Assembly (NCBI GenBank): GCA_013299115.1
Contig: JAAFKA010000001.1
Location: 124,001 to 188,000, forward strand
Length of the DNA: 64,000 nucleotides
Direction of reading: 5' to 3'
DNA from: Cytophagales bacterium
GTDB lineage: Bacteria; Bacteroidota; Bacteroidia; Cytophagales; Thermoflexibacteraceae
Part shown: positions 5,904-16,315 of the stretch, one piece after another
How the letters are laid out: each line of letters opens with the position of its first letter
Position numbering within the stretch: position 1 is the first letter of the stretch
Made by a program: the position numbers and the translations under genes
Notes under the pieces: generated by a model
What the model was told of the DNA's origin: nothing
Databases searched by the model: none
The model's input: only the letters and a program-made list of their open reading frames with translations

Positions 5904-6039
5904 AGCTTATGATAATTAGGGTAGTAGGCAATAATAAAAAATTATTTTAATTCCCATCTTTTAATAAGTCCTCTTACAAAGTTATTAAATTATTTTGTAA
6001 ATTATTCACAAACTCTATTTTTTTATGCCCAAGTTTTGC

Positions 6040-6054: not shown

Positions 6055-6819
6055 ATGGATTCTATTTACTACAAAGAATATTACCACTTAGAACGTAAAA
6101 ATTGGTGGTTTAAGGTAAGAAGTAATATTTTGCAGCAACGTATAGCCCAATTATTACCTCAACTTAACACCAACACTGTACTCAATGTTGGAGTGGCTAC
6201 GGGAGCTACTTCTGAAATGTTGGCTACCTTTGGGCAGGTCATGTCTATAGAGTACGATAAAGAATGTTTTGAATTTACCAAATCTATTCTCAAAAGCCCT
6301 ATTCTCAACGGCTCTATTTTGGAACTCCCTTTTGAGGAAGCCCAATACGATTTGGTTTGTGCTTTTGATGTGATAGAACACGTGGAAGACGACCTGTTGG
6401 CTGTCAATGAAATGAAAAGAGTCTGCAAAAAAGGCGGCTTGGTGGCTGTAACAGTGCCAGCTTTTATGAGTCTTTGGGGACAACATGATGTGGTAAATCA
6501 CCATTTTCGGCGTTATAAGTTGCAACAAGTCGTTAGATTATTTGAGCAAGGTGCAAAAGGCAAACTTTTATATAAAACTTACTTCAATTCTTTGCTTTTC
6601 CCACCCATTTTTGCCTTCAGAAACCTGATGCGAATTTTTCCCACCAATTTATTCCGTAACGAGGCAAAAGGCTCTGGGTCAGACCACAGCATTATAGCCG
6701 AAACAAGCCCTATCAACCAAGTATTAGAAAATATATTTGATACAGAAAGAAAACTGCTCAACAAAGGATGGACTTTCCCCGCAGGGGTTTCTGCTTTATT
6801 AGTTTGGCAAAAAGAATAG
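6055..6819 (+). CDS. Class I SAM-dependent methyltransferase
   Basis: A 254-residue protein. Motif I is 'VLNVGVATGATSEML' (residues ~42-56), followed by an acidic strand end 'MSIEYDKE' and the post-motif 'VCAFDVIEHVEDD', then 'GGLVAVTVPAF'. It belongs to the UbiE/SmtA-like Methyltransf_11 group. The C-terminal third ('HHFRRYKLQQVVRLFEQG...KTYFNSLLFPPIF') resembles methyltransferases often found with glycan or lipid modification genes, but the substrate is not evident. An in-frame ATG at 6025 would add ten residues. I prefer 6055 because the -7 promoter element lies between the two. Confidence 0.8.
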   Translation: MDSIYYKEYYHLERKNWWFKVRSNILQQRIAQLLPQLNTNTVLNVGVATGATSEMLATFGQVMSIEYDKECFEFTKSILKSPILNGSILELPFEEAQYDLVCAFDVIEHVEDDLLAVNEMKRVCKKGGLVAVTVPAFMSLWGQHDVVNHHFRRYKLQQVVRLFEQGAKGKLLYKTYFNSLLFPPIFAFRNLMRIFPTNLFRNEAKGSGSDHSIIAETSPINQVLENIFDTERKLLNKGWTFPAGVSALLVWQKE

Positions 6820-8580: not shown

Positions 8581-8635
8581 GGAGTTCAGAACGTAACCTT
8601 AAACTACTTACCTTTGCCATATCAAAATACAAAAG

Positions 8636-8772
8636 GAATGTAGCATAGGCTTTAGCCTGTGAAAGAATGTAGCATAGGCTTTAGCCTGTGCCTTTCTTTG
8701 GTGTGTACTTTTGTCAGCGTATTTTCGGTTGCTCAAAAACCGAAACAACACCGCAGGCTAAAGCCCACGATA
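8636..8772. repeat. GTAGCATAGGCTTTAGCCTGTG repeats (two direct, one inverted)
   Basis: Two direct copies with a period of 29 bases (from 8640 and 8669) each contain the palindrome AGGCTTTAGCCT. A third, diverged copy in reverse (CGCAGGCTAAAGCCCACGAT) lies at about 8752-8771. The 8431-8902 gap otherwise holds the XRE operator candidates, a TACCTTTG -7 element (8609-8616) and no gene. Confidence 0.7.
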
Positions 8773-8902
8773 CAAAACACAAACCAAAGCAACTGAAAAC
8801 CCTACACAGTTGTAAAATCTAAAAATGTAGGGTAAAAATATAAAATACTTAGCAGACTACCAAAAATAGCTGCAATTATTTTTCTAAAACCTAATAAAAA
8901 AA

Positions 8903-10216
8903 ATGAAAACATTACGTTTTTTACCCGTTGCCAATGGCAAATCGTCTTTTGCAAGTCTATTGTTGCTTGCCTTGTTCTTTTGTGCAAGCTATAAAGCACA
9001 AGCATTTACTTATGTTGTAGTGCGAGGAGCTTCGCAAGTTTGCCCCTACAATGTAGTTTCGTATGAAATAGACATCACAAATATTTTTCCTACACAAATT
9101 CTTATTGTTTCAGTGAGTGGTGGCACCATAGTGGATATACCAGAATACAGCAATGAAACCTATAATGCAATGAGAACACAGGCGAAGGTTGATGCCAGCC
9201 TAAGTGACAATCCTGTTAGGTCGTGTACTGCAATAGTTCGGTGGGGTGCTGGTGGTAGTGGCTCTTTTAGTGCAAATATTGGCTATGACATAGGTATTTT
9301 TGGTGGTATGCAGTGGAACTCAGATTCTATTGATGTAGCTAATGGTTTGGGTACTTTGGGTAGTATTGGAGGAGCAAGAACTATTTCTTGCGGAACAAGC
9401 ACCAGCAGTTACAGCATCAGTCCTGTTTTTGGAGCAGATTCTTATGAATGGTCGTCTTCTTCGCCTGCCTTGCAAGTGCTTGACAATGGTAATAATTCGG
9501 CTAATTTTGATGTAAGTAATTTCAGAGGTAGTGCAACCATTACAGTCATTGCACGCAATAACACTTGTAATGTAACAGGTATGAGAACTCTGTCTGTTTC
9601 TCGTGTGCCAGCAAGAGGCGGTGTAAGTGGAACTTCGCAAGTATGTAGTGGTACGGTGGCTTATTATTCAGCTATAGACCAGTCGAGTTATGCCCCACTT
9701 TTGGGCAGTGGCTTTGTCTGGGGTTTGCCATCGGGATGGAGTATCATAGATGGCGATGGCACAGGAGATATTAGCGTACAAGTACCTTCTTATTATGCTA
9801 CCAGACCTTCTTCTGTTACACTATCTTATCAAGCATTTGACGGATGCGGCAATTCAGTAAGAGGCTCAATCGGTGTGCAGAAAATGCCAAATTCAAACTG
9901 CTATATGGAAAGGATACTACCACCTACCAAAGACGAAAAAGCAAAAGATACAACTGATGCAACAGATACAGATGAAATAGTAGCTTTTATGCTCTATCCT
10001 AACCCCTCACAAGGGCAGGTTACGCTGTCTTGTGGCACAAAGGAAAGTGGCACATTAAAAATCTACGACAAATTAGGCACAGAAGTAGCTTCTTTTGCCA
10101 ACGTAAGCAATGGTTTTGTGTTTACTGTTACAGGTTTAGTGGCAGATACCTATACAGCCCGTTGGATAACGATAGAAACTGTTAAAACATTTCGTTTAGT
10201 AGTCAATCACAACTAA
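8903..10216 (+). CDS. Secreted PKD/Ig-like protein with T9SS C-terminal sorting domain
   Basis: A 437-residue protein. A signal peptide (residues ~14-34, ending AQA) is followed by three Ig/PKD-like beta modules marked by 'GASQVCP', 'ARTISCG' and 'GTSQVCSG'. An acidic linker (KDEKAKDTTDATDTDE, ~350-368) leads to the T9SS type A sorting domain: 'FMLYPNPSQGQVTL', 'LKIYDKLGTEV' and the terminal 'TFRLVVNHN'. The sorting domain would direct export through the outer membrane by the type IX system and then be cleaved. This is the only intact copy of a sorting domain whose last codons recur four times downstream (10915, 11507, 13261, 13946). Ligand or enzyme activity is not evident. Confidence 0.8.
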   Translation: MKTLRFLPVANGKSSFASLLLLALFFCASYKAQAFTYVVVRGASQVCPYNVVSYEIDITNIFPTQILIVSVSGGTIVDIPEYSNETYNAMRTQAKVDASLSDNPVRSCTAIVRWGAGGSGSFSANIGYDIGIFGGMQWNSDSIDVANGLGTLGSIGGARTISCGTSTSSYSISPVFGADSYEWSSSSPALQVLDNGNNSANFDVSNFRGSATITVIARNNTCNVTGMRTLSVSRVPARGGVSGTSQVCSGTVAYYSAIDQSSYAPLLGSGFVWGLPSGWSIIDGDGTGDISVQVPSYYATRPSSVTLSYQAFDGCGNSVRGSIGVQKMPNSNCYMERILPPTKDEKAKDTTDATDTDEIVAFMLYPNPSQGQVTLSCGTKESGTLKIYDKLGTEVASFANVSNGFVFTVTGLVADTYTARWITIETVKTFRLVVNHN

Positions 10217-10230
10217 AAAATTCATTCAAG

Positions 10231-10267
10231 AAAAACTTGCAACACATGACTTGTTTTGCAAGTTTTT
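10231..10267 (+). terminator. Stem-loop terminator after T9SS protein gene
   Basis: AAAACTTGCAA...TTGCAAGTTTTTT forms an 11-bp stem followed by a T run. Near-identical hairpins follow the sorting-domain remnants at 10968-11005, 13407-13445 and 14005-14043, each just before a lipoprotein gene. Confidence 0.75.
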
Positions 10268-10286
10268 TAAAAACTTTATAACAAAT

Positions 10287-10913
10287 ATGAAAACTTTTTT
10301 TTGTGGTTGTCTGCTTGGTTTGTTACTTGGCTTACAAACAGTTTTATTTGCTCAAATTTCCTTAACTGATAGTAGTAAAAGACAGCAAGTTTTTGAGCAA
10401 TATTTAGATAGTTTGCGTAGTGCCAATAAAAAATATCCTAAAAATTTACTAAAACTGCAATGGTGGTCTAATCGTAGAAATGCTGATTGGTTTATTCCTA
10501 ATGGACTTTGCTATGAAAGAATATGGGGCAAAAACTCTACATTGAACTTGAACCTGTTTTTTATGATAGGTCGTACCTCTATTCCTGCTTATGCTTTGTA
10601 CGGAGAAACTCGTTATTATTTGCGTTCACGTAAAAACCAGCATACGTTTAATGGTTTTTTTCTAAGGGGCGGCTTAGTCTATGCTTATCAGGAATATTTG
10701 TATTTGCCTAATTTTAAGCCTGTAGTAGGGGCAACTCGTTTAGGTGGTGTATTAGGTGGTTTTGGCTATCAAAAAGTATGGTGGAAAAAAGTAAGTACCG
10801 CAGCTTTTTTTGCCACTTCGGTAGGTGTGTTTGAAGAGGAGTATCGCAAATCTGTTAAAATAGATGCTTTCCAATGGAATGAGCTGGGGGTGAGTATTGG
10901 CTATGCGTTTTAA
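10287..10913 (+). CDS. Secreted or outer-membrane hypothetical protein
   Basis: A 208-residue protein starting at ATG 10287 with a signal peptide (MKTFFCGCLLGLLLGLQTVLFAQ). After a helical segment come 'YPKNLLKLQWWSNRRNADWF' and alternating aromatic/hydrophobic strands ('LNLNLFFMIG', 'LYGETRYYLRS', 'FFLRGGLVYAYQEYLYLP'), ending in Phe. This suggests a small beta-barrel or surface protein. No family is recognised. The 5' part is related to the truncated gene at 11641 (shared 'YPKNLLKLQW'). The preceding terminator hairpin lies partly in its leader. Confidence 0.6.
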   Translation: MKTFFCGCLLGLLLGLQTVLFAQISLTDSSKRQQVFEQYLDSLRSANKKYPKNLLKLQWWSNRRNADWFIPNGLCYERIWGKNSTLNLNLFFMIGRTSIPAYALYGETRYYLRSRKNQHTFNGFFLRGGLVYAYQEYLYLPNFKPVVGATRLGGVLGGFGYQKVWWKKVSTAAFFATSVGVFEEEYRKSVKIDAFQWNELGVSIGYAF

Positions 10914-10914
10914 T

Positions 10915-10953
10915 ACAGTGCAAAACTTCCGTTTGGTAGTTAATCATAACTAA
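10915..10953 (+). pseudogene. Orphan T9SS sorting-domain 3' end, copy 1
   Basis: The codons TVQNFRLVVNHN plus stop directly follow the previous gene's TAA but in another frame, and they have no start. They match the last 12 residues of the sorting domain of the 8903-10216 protein and are followed by the same hairpin. Confidence 0.75.
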
Positions 10954-10967
10954 AAAATTCATTCAAG

Positions 10968-11005
10968 AAAAACTTGCAACACATGACTTGTTGTGCAAGT
11001 TTTTT
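10968..11005 (+). terminator. Repeated stem-loop terminator, copy 2
   Basis: Same sequence as the hairpin at 10231-10267, with a TTGTTGTGC change in the loop side of the right arm. It lies 17 bases before the lipoprotein ATG at 11022. Confidence 0.65.
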
Positions 11006-11021
11006 CAAAAATCTATAAACC

Positions 11022-11504
11022 ATGAAAAAAATATTTTTGTTTAGTAGTGTGCTATTCTTACTTTGTATAGCCTACACCAACTGCACCCAAGAGCCTTGTA
11101 TGGGTTGTGGTGTGCAAATGCCCGATGTTTTACGTTTTGCTATCACAGGGGATGCTATTTTTGCAAACCAATATGATGCACAGCGTAGCATTTCCTTAGC
11201 AGTTCAAGAGAACAATAAAAGTGCTGTTACTATACCATTGACAGTGGAAAAAATAGCATTAAAATCTCAAAAAGACAGTGTTTATAGCTTTAATGTTGTA
11301 AATACTTACTCTATGCAGGATAGCAAAATGCCTTTACAAGTTGCTTACTTATTGGCTTACAAGGGCAAAAATATCGGTACTTTATCAGTTCGATATGCTG
11401 CCAATCGTAAAAATATAGAAAAAGCATATTTCAACAACAAAGAATTGCCTACACTGGAACAATGCTGGTTTTTACTTAATCTTACAAACAAAGATTTGGA
11501 GTAA
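11022..11504 (+). CDS. Hypothetical lipoprotein, copy 1 of a duplicated gene
   Basis: A 160-residue protein. The hydrophobic leader MKKIFLFSSVLFLLCIAYTNC ends at a lipidation cysteine (Cys21), followed by a second cysteine-rich segment 'EPCMGCG'. The remainder is predicted beta-rich ('VLRFAITGDAIFANQY', 'TIPLTVEKIALKS', 'YAANRKNIEKAYFNN'), a single domain resembling other small Bacteroidota outer-membrane lipoproteins. I do not recognise the family. The copy at 13461 differs at one residue (V31 here, M there). A third, truncated copy is at 14059. Confidence 0.75.
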   Translation: MKKIFLFSSVLFLLCIAYTNCTQEPCMGCGVQMPDVLRFAITGDAIFANQYDAQRSISLAVQENNKSAVTIPLTVEKIALKSQKDSVYSFNVVNTYSMQDSKMPLQVAYLLAYKGKNIGTLSVRYAANRKNIEKAYFNNKELPTLEQCWFLLNLTNKDLE

Positions 11505-11506
11505 CG

Positions 11507-11551
11507 GCAGACACAGTGCAAAACTTCCGTTTGGTGGTTAATCATAACTAA
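11507..11551 (+). pseudogene. Orphan T9SS sorting-domain 3' end, copy 2
   Basis: ADTVQNFRLVVNHN plus stop begins three bases after the lipoprotein stop. It has no start codon. It matches the end of the 8903-10216 protein and the copy at 13946-13990. Confidence 0.75.
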
Positions 11552-11569
11552 AATACACCTTTCATCAAT

Positions 11570-11619
11570 TTTTATACGCCTGTCAATATGCAAAAAATCA
11601 CGATTGACAGCGTATAAAA
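11570..11619. repeat. Hairpin TTTTATACGCCTGTCAAT...ATTGACAGCGTATAAAA
   Basis: Arms of about 18 bases surround a 14-base loop. The TTGACA...CGTATAAAAG end is shared with the loop region of the family-A hairpin at 178-276, so this is a relative of family A. It lies between the array genes. Confidence 0.65.
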
Positions 11620-11640
11620 GTTAATCATAAAAACATCATC

Positions 11641-11898
11641 ATGAAAAATATACATCATATTTTTGTTCTCTTGTTTTCCTGCCTTTCTTTTTGGGTGCAA
11701 GCACAAAACAACGAAGATAGCTTGGCTATCAAACAAAAACAATTTGCTCAAAAATTAGATAGTATTACGCAGCAAAAGTTAAACTATCCAAAAAATTTGC
11801 TCAAGCTTCAATGGAGTTTAAATAGGTGGAATACGCCAGCTTGGGTGTTGCCAACAGGTCATTCGGCAGGCACTTGGTCAGGTAATTTTACTTGGTAA
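11641..11898 (+). pseudogene. Truncated paralogue of the 10287 secreted protein
   Basis: An 85-residue frame with a signal peptide (ending WVQAQ). Its 'SITQQKLNYPKNLLKLQW..NRWNTPAW' aligns with the start of the 208-residue protein at 10287, then it stops after 'GTWSGNFTW' at about two fifths of that length. A stem-loop (11912-11937) follows at once. It is probably a decayed or partial duplicate, but a short secreted product cannot be excluded. Confidence 0.6.
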
Positions 11899-11960
11899 TT
11901 CTTAATTTTCCCCTTACCTGCAAAAGGCAGGTAAGGCTTTACCTTTTTTAGCACACCATC

Positions 11961-12575
11961 ATGAACTTAAAACATTTAATTTATTTCTTGCTACCTCTTT
12001 TTTTCATAGGTTGTACAGAACAAGATGAGCTTTTGCTCAAGGACATTGGTATTTTGCGTTATGAAATAGACGGAAAACCTTATCAAACTGCTATCAAATA
12101 TAAAGTTGATACTGGCTATTCTTATCCTTTTTTCAATAATGATATTGGGCGTAGCTCAAGCGGCACAGGTTCATCTGTCATATTTACAGACCACACAGAT
12201 GGAGACAGAGGTTTATTACAGTTGTCGCGACACTGTTATATTGAGCCTTTAACAAATAAAACAGTTTGTAAAGACAGTGCCTGGTCAGATAATCAAACAG
12301 AATTGTTAAAAGTAGGGATAAAAATTCCATTTGATACACCTCATGGAGCATCAAATACAAAGCCTGATTTATATGCCTCTCTTCGTTTTATGATAGATGG
12401 CTCTATGTATTCTGTTCCTGATAAATTAAACAATGAAGTGCCAGGTAGCTTGACCATCCTAAAAAATGATGAAGAAGTTTTTGAGGCTACTTTTGAGTGT
12501 GTCATTGCTTATCTTTCAGATAAAAATAAAAAAAGTATCCTCAAAAATGGCTTTATTTCTGTAAGACGTAATTAA
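11961..12575 (+). CDS. Hypothetical lipoprotein, paralogue A
   Basis: A 204-residue protein. The signal peptide ends in the lipobox FFIGC (Cys18), followed by TEQDELL. It is related along its length to the next gene: 'DIGILRYEIDGKPYQTAIKY', 'VIFTDHT', 'WKVG/LKVGIKIPFDTP', 'LTILKNDEEVFEATFECVI' and the terminal 'KNGFISVRRN'. Predicted all-beta. No known family is recognised. Such pairs are common among surface lipoproteins of the phylum. Confidence 0.72.
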   Translation: MNLKHLIYFLLPLFFIGCTEQDELLLKDIGILRYEIDGKPYQTAIKYKVDTGYSYPFFNNDIGRSSSGTGSSVIFTDHTDGDRGLLQLSRHCYIEPLTNKTVCKDSAWSDNQTELLKVGIKIPFDTPHGASNTKPDLYASLRFMIDGSMYSVPDKLNNEVPGSLTILKNDEEVFEATFECVIAYLSDKNKKSILKNGFISVRRN

Positions 12576-12610
12576 AAATACTTAGCACGAGATAACACTT
12601 CATTTACCTT

Positions 12611-12645
12611 TTATCAGCCAACAGCTATCCTCTGGTTGGCTGATA
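12611..12645 (+). terminator. Stem-loop ATCAGCCAAC...GTTGGCTGAT between the lipoprotein paralogues
   Basis: A 10-bp perfect stem with a 12-base loop lies between the two paralogous lipoprotein genes. It has no long T run, so its strength as a terminator is uncertain. Confidence 0.5.
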
Positions 12646-12680
12646 TTGTAAATAAATTCAATTTTAAAGCCTTCAAAAAA

Positions 12681-13256
12681 ATGAAAAAATTATTTATAGT
12701 CTTGTTTACAGCTTTTTTGGCTGTCGGCTGTACCCAAGACGAACTGTTTACCAAAAACATAGGCATCATTCGATACGAAGTAGATGGCAAACCTTACCAG
12801 ACCGACATCAAATACCAAGTGGACTGCAATACAAAATATCCTTGTGTGAATGTAGATATTGGTATAGGCTATCAAACAACTGGTATTGTATTTAGAGACC
12901 ACACAGGTGATAATAGAAATGGGCTTTCTTTTGGTGGGTTCAGAAGTAATATTGAATGTGATAGTGTATGGCAAGACTGTGCAACAAATTTTTGGAAAGT
13001 GGGTGTAAAATTTCCAATGGATACACCTTTTAGACCCGACACCAAACCCAAGCCAGAGAGGTATGCTTATTTTGGTTTCAGAGGTTTTCATTCGTTGGCA
13101 GAAAACATGAGTAATGAAACTCCTGCGTTTCTGACTATCACTAAAAATGACGAGAATACATTTGAAGCTACTTTTGAGTGTATGATTAGTTATGACGCTA
13201 ACAGAACTAAAAAAGCTGTTATCAAAAATGGATTTGTTTCTATTCGCAGAAATTAG
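12681..13256 (+). CDS. Hypothetical lipoprotein, paralogue B
   Basis: A 191-residue protein from ATG 12681, chosen because the signal peptide starts there; an ATG at 12636 would place 15 polar residues in front. The lipobox is FLAVGC. It is a diverged duplicate of the 11961 protein: 'NIGIIRYEVDGKPYQTDIKY', 'VGVKFPMDTPF', 'LTITKNDENTFEATFECMI' and 'KNGFVSIRRN' are shared. The 3' end runs almost directly into a sorting-domain remnant that starts five bases after the stop. Confidence 0.72.
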   Translation: MKKLFIVLFTAFLAVGCTQDELFTKNIGIIRYEVDGKPYQTDIKYQVDCNTKYPCVNVDIGIGYQTTGIVFRDHTGDNRNGLSFGGFRSNIECDSVWQDCATNFWKVGVKFPMDTPFRPDTKPKPERYAYFGFRGFHSLAENMSNETPAFLTITKNDENTFEATFECMISYDANRTKKAVIKNGFVSIRRN

Positions 13257-13260
13257 ACAA

Positions 13261-13392
13261 ATGAAAACATACACCCATGTAGGCAATGATTTTGTGTTTA
13301 CGGTTGCTGGTTTAGTGGTAGATACGTACACAGTACGTTGGGTAACGACAGACACAGTGCAAAACTTCCGTTTGGTAGTTAATCATAACTAA
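13261..13392 (+). pseudogene. Orphan T9SS sorting-domain fragment, copy 3 (longest)
   Basis: The 43 codons from ATG 13261 read 'MKTYTHVGNDFVFTVAGLVV' and end 'TVQNFRLVVNHN'. They align with the last ~38 residues of the 8903-10216 protein ('NGFVFTVTGLVADTYTARW'). There is no signal peptide or passenger. The sequence looks like the surviving tail of a T9SS protein whose body was replaced. Confidence 0.75.
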
Positions 13393-13406
13393 AAAATTCA
13401 TTCAAG

Positions 13407-13445
13407 AAAAACTTGCAACACATGACTTGTTTTGCAAGTTTTTTC
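13407..13445 (+). terminator. Repeated stem-loop terminator, copy 3
   Basis: Same AAAACTTGCAA/TTGCAAGTTTT hairpin as at 10231, again directly upstream of a copy of the 160-residue lipoprotein gene. Confidence 0.65.
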
Positions 13446-13460
13446 AAAAATCTATAAACC

Positions 13461-13943
13461 ATGAAAAAAATATTTTTGTTTAGTAGTGTGCTATTCTTAC
13501 TTTGTATAGCCTACACCAACTGCACCCAAGAGCCTTGTATGGGTTGTGGTATGCAAATGCCCGATGTTTTACGTTTTGCTATCACAGGGGATGCTATTTT
13601 TGCAAACCAATATGATGCACAGCGTAGCATTTCCTTAGCAGTTCAAGAGAACAATAAAAGTGCTGTTACTATACCATTGACAGTGGAAAAAATAGCATTA
13701 AAATCTCAAAAAGACAGTGTTTATAGCTTTAATGTTGTAAATACTTACTCTATGCAGGATAGCAAAATGCCTTTACAAGTTGCTTACTTATTGGCTTACA
13801 AGGGCAAAAATATCGGTACTTTATCAGTTCGATATGCTGCCAATCGTAAAAATATAGAAAAAGCATATTTCAACAACAAAGAATTGCCTACACTGGAACA
13901 ATGCTGGTTTTTACTTAATCTTACAAACAAAGATTTGGAGTAA
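13461..13943 (+). CDS. Hypothetical lipoprotein, copy 2 of the duplicated gene
   Basis: A 160-residue protein that differs from the 11022 copy only at residue 31 (Met instead of Val). The DNA identity extends upstream through the hairpin and sorting-domain remnant and downstream through the next remnant. The features are the same: leader ending at Cys21, an 'EPCMGCG' motif and a beta-rich body. Such identity means a very recent duplication or gene conversion. Function unknown. Confidence 0.75.
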   Translation: MKKIFLFSSVLFLLCIAYTNCTQEPCMGCGMQMPDVLRFAITGDAIFANQYDAQRSISLAVQENNKSAVTIPLTVEKIALKSQKDSVYSFNVVNTYSMQDSKMPLQVAYLLAYKGKNIGTLSVRYAANRKNIEKAYFNNKELPTLEQCWFLLNLTNKDLE

Positions 13944-13945
13944 CG

Positions 13946-13990
13946 GCAGACACAGTGCAAAACTTCCGTTTGGTGGTTAATCATAACTAA
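13946..13990 (+). pseudogene. Orphan T9SS sorting-domain 3' end, copy 4
   Basis: ADTVQNFRLVVNHN plus stop has the same sequence and position relative to the lipoprotein gene as the copy at 11507-11551, and is followed by the hairpin at 14005. Confidence 0.75.
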
Positions 13991-14004
13991 AAAATTCATT
14001 CAAG

Positions 14005-14043
14005 AAAAACTTGCAACACATGACTTGTTTTGCAAGTTTTTTA
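14005..14043 (+). terminator. Repeated stem-loop terminator, copy 4
   Basis: Same hairpin sequence as at 10231 and 13407. It lies 15 bases before the truncated lipoprotein copy at 14059. Confidence 0.65.
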
Positions 14044-14058
14044 AAAAATCTATAAACC

Positions 14059-14292
14059 ATGAAAAAAATATTTTTGTTTAGTAGTGTGCTATTCTTACTT
14101 TGTATAGCCTACACCAACTGCACCCAAGAGCCTTGTATGGGTTGTGGTATGCAAGTGCCTGATGTTTTACGTTTTGCTATCACAGGGGATGCTATTTTTG
14201 CAAACCAATATGATGCACAGCGTAGCATTTCCTTAGCAGTTCAAGAGAACAATAAAAGTATAGCGGAAATGGAACAAAAATTGTGGCAATAA
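14059..14292 (+). pseudogene. Truncated third copy of the 160-residue lipoprotein
   Basis: The first 67 residues match the copies at 11022 and 13461 (only 'MQVPD' differs from 'MQMPD'). After 'QENNKS' the sequence switches to unrelated 'IAEMEQKLWQ' and stops. The break is abrupt at about 14262, the right edge of the tandem duplication (period 598 bases from the copy at 13461). The signal peptide and lipidation Cys remain. Confidence 0.75.
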
Positions 14293-14352: not shown

Positions 14353-14781
14353 ATGATAGAAGACTACCAATTAGTCCCCGCCTTTTACTTTTCAGTACGA
14401 ATAGATGACGAGGAGATTCCTTTTCAAAGTGTTTCAGGATTAAGTGCAGAGGTGCAGTACAAAGAAACAATGGGCATAAAACTTCCCGAAGGCACAAAAT
14501 ATGGCGACTTAGTTTTAAACAGGGCTTTGACCACTGTGAATTCTAATTTTGCTACTTGGCTTTTTGACATTTTTTACAGAGGTTTTAATACGCCCCAACG
14601 ATTTGTTCCCAAAACAGCATTGCTTAGACTCTTAGGTACAGACGACCAACCTATTTTTGTATGGCAATTCAATGATTTGTTGCCTAAAAAATGGCAAATT
14701 TCCTCACTCGATGCCAAAAAAAATGAGCTAATTATAGAAACCATTACATTTGAATACGACTCGGTGTTTAAGTTGAAGTAA
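14353..14781 (+). CDS. T4 gp19-like phage tail tube / contractile injection system tube protein
   Basis: A 142-residue protein of normal length for the family. The opening 'YQLVPAFYFSVRIDDEEIPFQSVSGLSAEVQYKE' is the usual start of T4gp19/Afp1-type inner tube proteins ('p.Ff.V.i.....fqevsGl..e'). The C-terminal 'LPKKWQISSLDAKKNELIIETITFEYDSV' matches the family's closing block ('..gp.l....nev.iE.l.l.ye'). In phages and extracellular contractile injection systems this protein stacks into the tube. No sheath, baseplate, spike or ATPase gene is visible here, so it stands alone between array debris and nuoF. It may be part of a dispersed system or have been captured for another role. Confidence 0.82.
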   Translation: MIEDYQLVPAFYFSVRIDDEEIPFQSVSGLSAEVQYKETMGIKLPEGTKYGDLVLNRALTTVNSNFATWLFDIFYRGFNTPQRFVPKTALLRLLGTDDQPIFVWQFNDLLPKKWQISSLDAKKNELIIETITFEYDSVFKLK

Positions 14782-16195: not shown

Positions 16196-16247
16196 ATAGA
16201 GTAGAACTTGCAATTAAAAGGATAAACTTCTTGAGTAAATATTTTGG

Positions 16248-16290
16248 AACTCATCTATTGGACACTTGTAAAGTGTCCGATAGATGAGTT
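16248..16290. terminator. Bidirectional terminator between nuoF and lepA
   Basis: AACTCATCTATTGGACACTT and its near-perfect inverse surround a 2-3 base loop, with a T run on the plus strand. It serves the two convergent genes. Confidence 0.85.
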
Positions 16291-16315
16291 TTTTAGGTTT
16301 TTACAAAAACGTCTA

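Follow-up and report, generated by a model that had tools for sequence, protein, structure and literature searches.

How did the 3' end of a gene for a T9SS-secreted protein come to be present five times in one gene array, once intact (8903-10216) and four times as a remnant, with small exported genes in between? An earlier note, made from the letters of this DNA, had proposed that recombination at the conserved 3' end and the adjoining hairpin repeatedly exchanged or inserted gene bodies, as in a cassette array for surface proteins, and had named decay of tandem T9SS genes as the alternative.

Organization of the locus and genomes compared

The window, i.e. the whole stretch of 64,000 nucleotides that was analysed, corresponds to positions 124001-188000 of contig 1; the genome comprises 5.5 Mb, distributed over 74 contigs. 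It was compared with one other genome of the genus (hereafter the congener), a MAG ('Cytophagales bacterium RE-15aug16-245'), the comparison covering one genome per species. The array (Table 1) is organized as follows: T9SS gene A, hairpin, OMP1, copied block (tail 1, hairpin, lipoprotein 1, tail 2), other hairpin, truncated OMP2, Q1, Q2, T9SS gene B remnant (ATG and tail 3), hairpin, lipoprotein 2, tail 4, hairpin and truncated lipoprotein 3. The region contains no Ns, and its 639-bp copies exceed short-read length.

Table 1. Features of the array, with positions in the window
Feature	Position	Strand	Description
Intact T9SS gene, copy A	8903..10216	+	437 aa, with signal peptide region, PKD-like domains and a sorting domain of T9SS type A
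Terminator-like hairpin 3' of tail A	10217..10275	+	RNA fold -17 kcal/mol, z -4.6
OMP1	10287..10913	+	Small exported protein, 208 aa; beta-rich C-terminal half, outer-membrane-like
Copied 639-bp block (lipoprotein with hairpin in front, flanked by two tails)	10915..11553	+	2/639 differences from 13354-13992
Orphan tail 1	10915..10953	+	39 nt, directly 3' of OMP1 stop
Lipoprotein copy 1	11022..11504	+	160 aa ORF; congener homologue 60% identical
Orphan tail 2	11501..11551	+	Joined to end of lipoprotein 1
Different hairpin after tail 2	11552..11630	+	RNA fold -21.2 kcal/mol, z -6.8
OMP2	11641..11898	+	Truncated OMP1 paralogue; 51% identity over 43 aa, E 8e-10
Lipoprotein Q1	11961..12575	+	204 aa; 46% identical to Q2; no tail in front
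Lipoprotein Q2	12681..13256	+	191 aa; Q1 paralogue; no tail in front
T9SS gene B remnant (tail 3)	13263..13392	+	ATGAAAACAT start in frame with last codons; 43-codon ORF
Tandem array of 598-bp unit (tail + hairpin + lipoprotein)	13342..14258	+	Second copy breaks off inside lipoprotein gene
Lipoprotein copy 2	13461..13943	+	160 aa; 99.4% identical to copy 1
Orphan tail 4	13940..13990	+	Joined to end of lipoprotein 2
Lipoprotein copy 3	14059..14292	+	Truncated after codon 67

The intact T9SS gene

The protein encoded by copy A has a PKD_6 (Pfam) match (E 8.7e-16). Its sorting domain scores just under the cut-offs (Por_Secre_tail 26.6 bits for a cut-off of 27; TIGR04183 21.8 for a cut-off of 23), and that of its congener homologue passes both (27.4 and 25.0, respectively). 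On the basis of this borderline match and of the presence of SprA of the T9SS in both genomes, copy A can be regarded as a T9SS cargo with a type A sorting domain. The profile search found PKD-like and sorting domains only, with no recognisable toxin domain and with an unclassified N-terminal part, and the protein has the appearance of a small surface protein of the PKD type. When it was used as the query of a contig search, the congener was the sole genome matched.

Orphan tails and hairpins

The five 3' ends are located where the earlier note had placed them, with small corrections of their starts. Indeed, (i) an identical 30-mer of the tail starts at 10924, 11522, 13363 and 13961, while the intact copy A deviates from it at several bases, and the ending NFRLVVNHN, initially attributed to all five, belongs to the four remnants, the intact gene ending in TFRLVVNHN; (ii) tails 2 and 4 begin slightly earlier than had been noted, at 11501 and 13940 instead of 11507 and 13946, at a GTAACG that they have in common with the lipoprotein gene end; (iii) the remnants had been described as startless, which does not apply to 13261-13392, where an in-frame ATG is present at 13263. 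This remnant has the composition expected of a second T9SS gene (copy B) that would have lost its body, and its coding tail differs from that of A at 24 of 119 sites (20%). From left end to stop codon, tails 1 to 4 measure 39, 51, 130 and 51 nt. A search for a 27-nt tail pattern, which took in 390 genomes of the order (this one, the congener and 388 others), found it at five places in this genome, at three in the congener and in none of the 388 others; a reversed control also gave no match, and a chance origin of the recurrence is thereby excluded.

Four of the five tails, as had been noted, have the same hairpin (52-57 nt, z -3.1 to -4.6) behind them. These are the tails with ends at 10216, 10953, 13392 and 13990; the hairpin behind the remaining tail (end at 11551) is a different one. 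Each hairpin was then said to be followed by a different or duplicated small secreted gene. The duplicates are indeed present, but the four identical hairpins precede two gene families only, namely one OMP-like gene and three copies of the 160-aa lipoprotein gene. The hairpin behind the congener tail differs from this one. Over the 52 nt after the stop codon, no difference separates copies A and B (tail 3), against the 24/119 in their coding tails (P about 8e-6 if rates were equal). Recent recombination or conversion of the hairpin accounts for this contrast with no need for strict selection, by which the hairpins could also have been kept identical.

Small genes of the array

The structure model of OMP1 displays long strands with low confidence (pLDDT 48), and by this model the protein looks like an outer-membrane protein; a sequence search of the PDB with the OMP family returned no match. 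The close relatives of OMP1 are confined to the congener, where they lie behind T9SS genes, and one distant relative is located behind a T9SS-sorted gene. A search for the OMP and lipoprotein families in 241 genomes of the order added two distant relatives on the OMP side and none for the lipoprotein.

The 160-aa product is predicted to resemble a beta-rich lipoprotein (model pLDDT 67). In a structural comparison that bore on the lipocalin-like fold of staphostatin/Bfi-type C10 inhibitors, its best hits (Z 6.2) were to pilin and other beta-sandwich domains, with no usable fold match; a PDB sequence match to a collagen adhesin is weak (42 residues, E 0.002), and a profile search gave no match to an immunity or inhibitor family. 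No similarity was detectable between Q1/Q2 and this lipoprotein. A scan for sigma-70-type promoters found fewer sites than in shuffled sequences, with a consensus that is not apt for this phylum.

Duplicated units and their junctions

The unit 13342-13939 recurs at a spacing of 598, with five differences in 316 bp. GTAACG is common to the two sequences that meet at the junction, GAGTAACGG from the lipoprotein gene end and GGGTAACGA from the tail. With its head-to-tail 598-bp unit and its short-homology junction, the segment 13342-14258 is a tandem segmental duplication. The 639-bp block is located 2.4 kb upstream of its source, between the two OMP gene copies. Its tail 1 carries the variant of tail 3 and its tail 2 that of tail 4; the block was therefore copied from 13354-13992, after the tandem duplication. 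Copies, junctions and copying order can all be read directly in the DNA.

Related loci in the congener

In related genomes, the tail might have been expected with other passengers. It was found in the congener only, in the three copies mentioned above, and the lipoprotein is encoded there behind the tail of a C10 peptidase gene and not behind a T9SS tail. The congener has two T9SS-OMP pairs, on two contigs, which may represent two loci or, as this genome is a MAG, partly strain variants. These pairs are mosaics, with near-identical ends and intergenic regions and divergent T9SS N-terminal domain and OMP blocks (dS about 1.0 in the T9SS N-terminal domain versus 0.1 in the adjoining sequence). 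In one of them (L032), an orphan tail (1983-2018) separates OMP1 from a frame-shifted OMP2, a layout parallel to that of the window. To within 3 nt, the codon with which this orphan tail begins is also the first one of tail 1 in the window. Because of this common start, the T9SS-OMP1-tail-OMP2 layout is probably ancestral to both species, and the lipoprotein block of the window would have entered at a pre-existing tail between OMP1 and OMP2.

The position of the array is not conserved, other genes adjoining nuoF in the congener. The homologue of the 160-aa lipoprotein is a single-copy gene there, located elsewhere than the T9SS-OMP pairs, in the order: C10 peptidase (PF01640, E 1e-30), another lipoprotein, orphan peptidase tail, lipoprotein homologue. 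The orphan peptidase tail is 36 nt long and identical to the end of the peptidase gene at 32 of 36 positions. Hence this lipoprotein family follows an orphan tail in both species, but the secreted-protein genes from which the two tails derive are unrelated, which is the best hint of something more than duplication; the passenger context thus varies between the two species.

Search for a dedicated mechanism

Nothing above cut-off was found with the integron integrase profile (TIGR02249) in either genome. The sole tyrosine-recombinase-like match on the contig of the array is about 136 kb away, and none adjoins the array. Nor was an att or attC site found. An integron gene-cassette array was considered and rejected, with no IntI over cut-off and no constant crossover point (tail left ends at 39, 51, 130 and 51 nt; a microhomology junction). 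A scan for local orphan gene pieces in 792 kb of the 5.5-Mb genome and 49 kb of the congener counted 14 3' ends, 11 5' ends and 8 and 8 internal pieces; with these small numbers, and with a coarse scan whose sensitivity is limited, diverged copies within the array itself having been missed, no clear general excess of orphan 3' ends over 5' or internal pieces was seen. This genome has further local tandem arrays with unit ends that cut into neighbouring genes, for example three units of about 1.16 kb (C23:36681-40178). A literature search for duplication or gene conversion of T9SS sorting domains returned no matching report.

Origin of the array

The array is likely to be a local product of ordinary segmental duplication combined with RecA-type or microhomology recombination among the tail and terminator repeats, which probably served as homology for the recombination. 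It would have started from a PKD-domain gene for a T9SS-secreted protein, followed by a small exported gene, and each duplicated unit would comprise the last part of the former, its terminator and the whole of the latter. Any leader or promoter in front of the small gene would thereby be retained, so that its copies would stay expressible, which may account for the survival of the units. The events, whose order is deduced from the differences between copies, could have been the following: (i) T9SS copies A and B diverged; (ii) the body of B was lost, its start and tail remaining; (iii) the unit composed of tail, hairpin and lipoprotein was duplicated in tandem through the short GTAACG microhomology; (iv) a copy of the block from tail 3 through lipoprotein 2 to tail 4 was inserted 2.4 kb upstream, the most likely route being homologous recombination with an orphan tail already present between OMP1 and OMP2; (v) the hairpin beside the tails was homogenised; and (vi) OMP2 and lipoprotein 3 decayed. 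The promoter content, the pre-existing tail and the recombination pathway are the conjectural parts of this scheme. The proposal of recombination at the 3' end and hairpin thus keeps part of its force, from the block copy with its two changes, from the identical hairpins beside coding tails that differ by 20% and from the other neighbourhood of the lipoprotein in the congener.

Some features of the locus fit duplication less well: two passenger families are found behind the same tail and hairpin, the arrival of the first lipoprotein behind a T9SS tail is left unexplained by simple tandem duplication, and in the congener the lipoprotein follows the orphan tail of another gene, that of the C10 peptidase.

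Formed in this way, the array would be a clean, datable example of the multiplication of small secreted genes in Bacteroidota. Furthermore, since the duplicated unit begins in the conserved 3' end of the upstream gene, conserved sorting domains can supply homology for rearrangement.

Alternative explanations and comparison with known systems

A displacement array, as in T6SS effector-immunity loci, where incoming pairs of a secreted protein and its partner oust older ones, of which the partner gene and the T9SS gene's 3' end persist, appears unlikely. Its anatomy is that of the Vibrio cholerae orphan immunity arrays (Kirchberger 2017, PMC5361080), in which the effector 3' end is shifted back with the old immunity genes. 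These arrays consist of serial small genes, in front of some of which a displaced secreted-protein gene has left its 3' end, and grow through recombination without an integrase, as could be the case here. However, they bring together different immunity types from other strains, whereas the small genes of the window are mostly duplicates, and here the secreted protein is of the T9SS type with PKD domains. In the congener, the T9SS gene and the OMP gene vary together as a pair, and the C10 locus, with its peptidase, lipoprotein, orphan peptidase tail and second lipoprotein, has the arrangement that displacement would leave. It also recalls the Bacteroides C10 peptidases, which are co-transcribed with small inhibitors that are often lipoproteins (PMC3462683). 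The window locus, in contrast, contains no C10 peptidase, and its 160-aa lipoprotein is at most a candidate inhibitor. Against displacement, the T9SS protein has PKD-like domains, an unclassified N-terminal part and no recognisable toxin domain, the lipoprotein matches no immunity or inhibitor family, and the genes behind the orphan 3' ends are of two kinds (OMP and lipoprotein), but three of the units are near-identical copies of one gene, which points to duplication. A T9SS version of such arrays, with a variable T9SS surface protein, cognate OMP or lipoprotein partners and the sorting-domain end and terminator as recombination anchor, is decidedly unlikely; if the partners were indeed cognate to the T9SS protein, the locus would be the T9SS counterpart of the T6SS and T7SS immunity-gene arrays.

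Stepwise decay of full-length tandem T9SS genes, without recombination between units, is very improbable for the array as a whole. Copy B is clearly such a remnant (13263-13392), and OMP2 and lipoprotein 3 are truncated, so that this explanation stands for tail 3. It is contradicted for tails 1, 2 and 4, which are joined directly to other genes, and decay cannot yield the copying of 13354-13992 into 10915-11553, which match at 99.7% with the two tails included. A site-specific cassette system, with tail and hairpin as a recombination site like attC or the att of an integrative element, is scarcely credible: the tail and hairpin are repeated, the units end in a tail, the hairpin is identical in four places and the orphan tails of two species begin at the same codon, but the genome has no integron integrase above cut-off, the sole tyrosine-recombinase-like match on this contig is distant, the junctions vary and the tandem one uses microhomology, the tail is missing from 388 other genomes of the order, and the congener tail has a different hairpin behind it. 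The cassette array with repeated exchange of passengers, as first proposed, is not supported, given that most units are same-passenger duplicates, that no clear excess of orphan 3' ends was seen in 792 kb of this genome and that neither the junction nor the integrase search supports it.

The tandem esaG and tipC immunity genes of T7SS (Garrett 2022, PMC9484751) are also among the closest known systems. They are paralogues that are gained and lost by recombination via short blocks of high identity; these blocks lie inside the small genes, whereas here they lie in the 3' end of the upstream gene and in the terminator. By analogy with the T6SS and T7SS arrays (PMC5361080, PMC9484751), a partner or immunity role of the small genes is possible. 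The TANFOR polymorphic-toxin paper on Bacteroidetes mentions neither orphan modules nor recombination. A further comparison is with the orphan CdiA-CT/CdiI and Rhs modules (e.g. PMC3150448). In these, too, 3' fragments of a large gene for a secreted protein stand alone, each followed by a small gene; unlike the tails described here, which comprise 13-43 codons of a conserved sorting domain, these pieces contain a whole variable toxin domain.

Orphan gene ends and repeats in the congener

In the congener, the 160-aa lipoprotein gene is preceded by an orphan tail, 36 nt long, from a C10 peptidase gene, and this arrangement is a second case of the anatomy of the array, with a different secreted-protein gene. 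A short MITE-like element is inserted immediately before this tail. Another MITE-like element, of about 230 bp, separates an orphan T9SS tail from OMP2 at L032, one of two congener sequences carrying T9SS-OMP pairs. Both pairs are mosaic: divergent blocks, namely the N-terminal domain and the OMP body, lie amid nearly identical stretches, a pattern resembling that of gene families in which conversion occurs alongside diversifying blocks. The congener T9SS tails are followed by a GC-richer palindrome related to the dispersed palindrome upstream of the T9SS gene of the window.

Other repeats and neighbouring genes

An intergenic palindrome beyond the array has similar copies at about 20 further genome sites, on both strands, and together they are a family of REP-like elements or terminators. 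A solitary gene for a phage/contractile-injection tail-tube-like protein (gp19, TIGR02241; CIS5-like) separates the array from nuoF. Elsewhere in the same genome, contig C23 carries three tandem units of about 1.16 kb, each consisting of a ~190-aa lipoprotein gene and a fragment of a nearby gene. The same contig encodes a 1590-aa protein with a long internal repeat array; the last ~350 bp of this gene are present as a second copy, and parts of the surrounding genes lie dispersed in the vicinity. Each of the two species has a pair of adjacent genes with a near-identical 3' end in common; these are probably a methylase-restriction pair sharing a recognition region.

Coordinates of the features (bare numbers are window positions; L032, L033, L034 and L055, congener sequences; C12 and C23, contigs of the genome containing the window)
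Feature	Position	Details
Orphan C10 peptidase tail	L034:6763-6798	versus 5949-5984
MITE-like element	L034:about 6666-6765	inverted ends GGTAGTGCCA...TGGCACTACC; GATTTTCA duplicated on flanks
MITE-like element	L032:about 2045-2290	inverted ends CTATTAAGCTAAGAA...TTCTTAGCTTAATAG; repeated flank GACTTTAGTC
Mosaic T9SS-OMP pairs	L032:1-1500; L033:1-1500	
Dispersed palindrome	8633-8775	around AGGCTTTAGCCTG
Intergenic palindrome	16240-16310	20-bp arms, 95%
Tail-tube-like gene	14353-14781	
Tandem units	C23:36681-40178	in L079 (L082-L078 region)
1590-aa gene	C23:169039-173811	
Copy of its 3' end	C23:167579-167930	
Adjacent gene pair	C12:50745-54607	903/375 aa
Adjacent gene pair	L055:11158-15332	1002/380 aa
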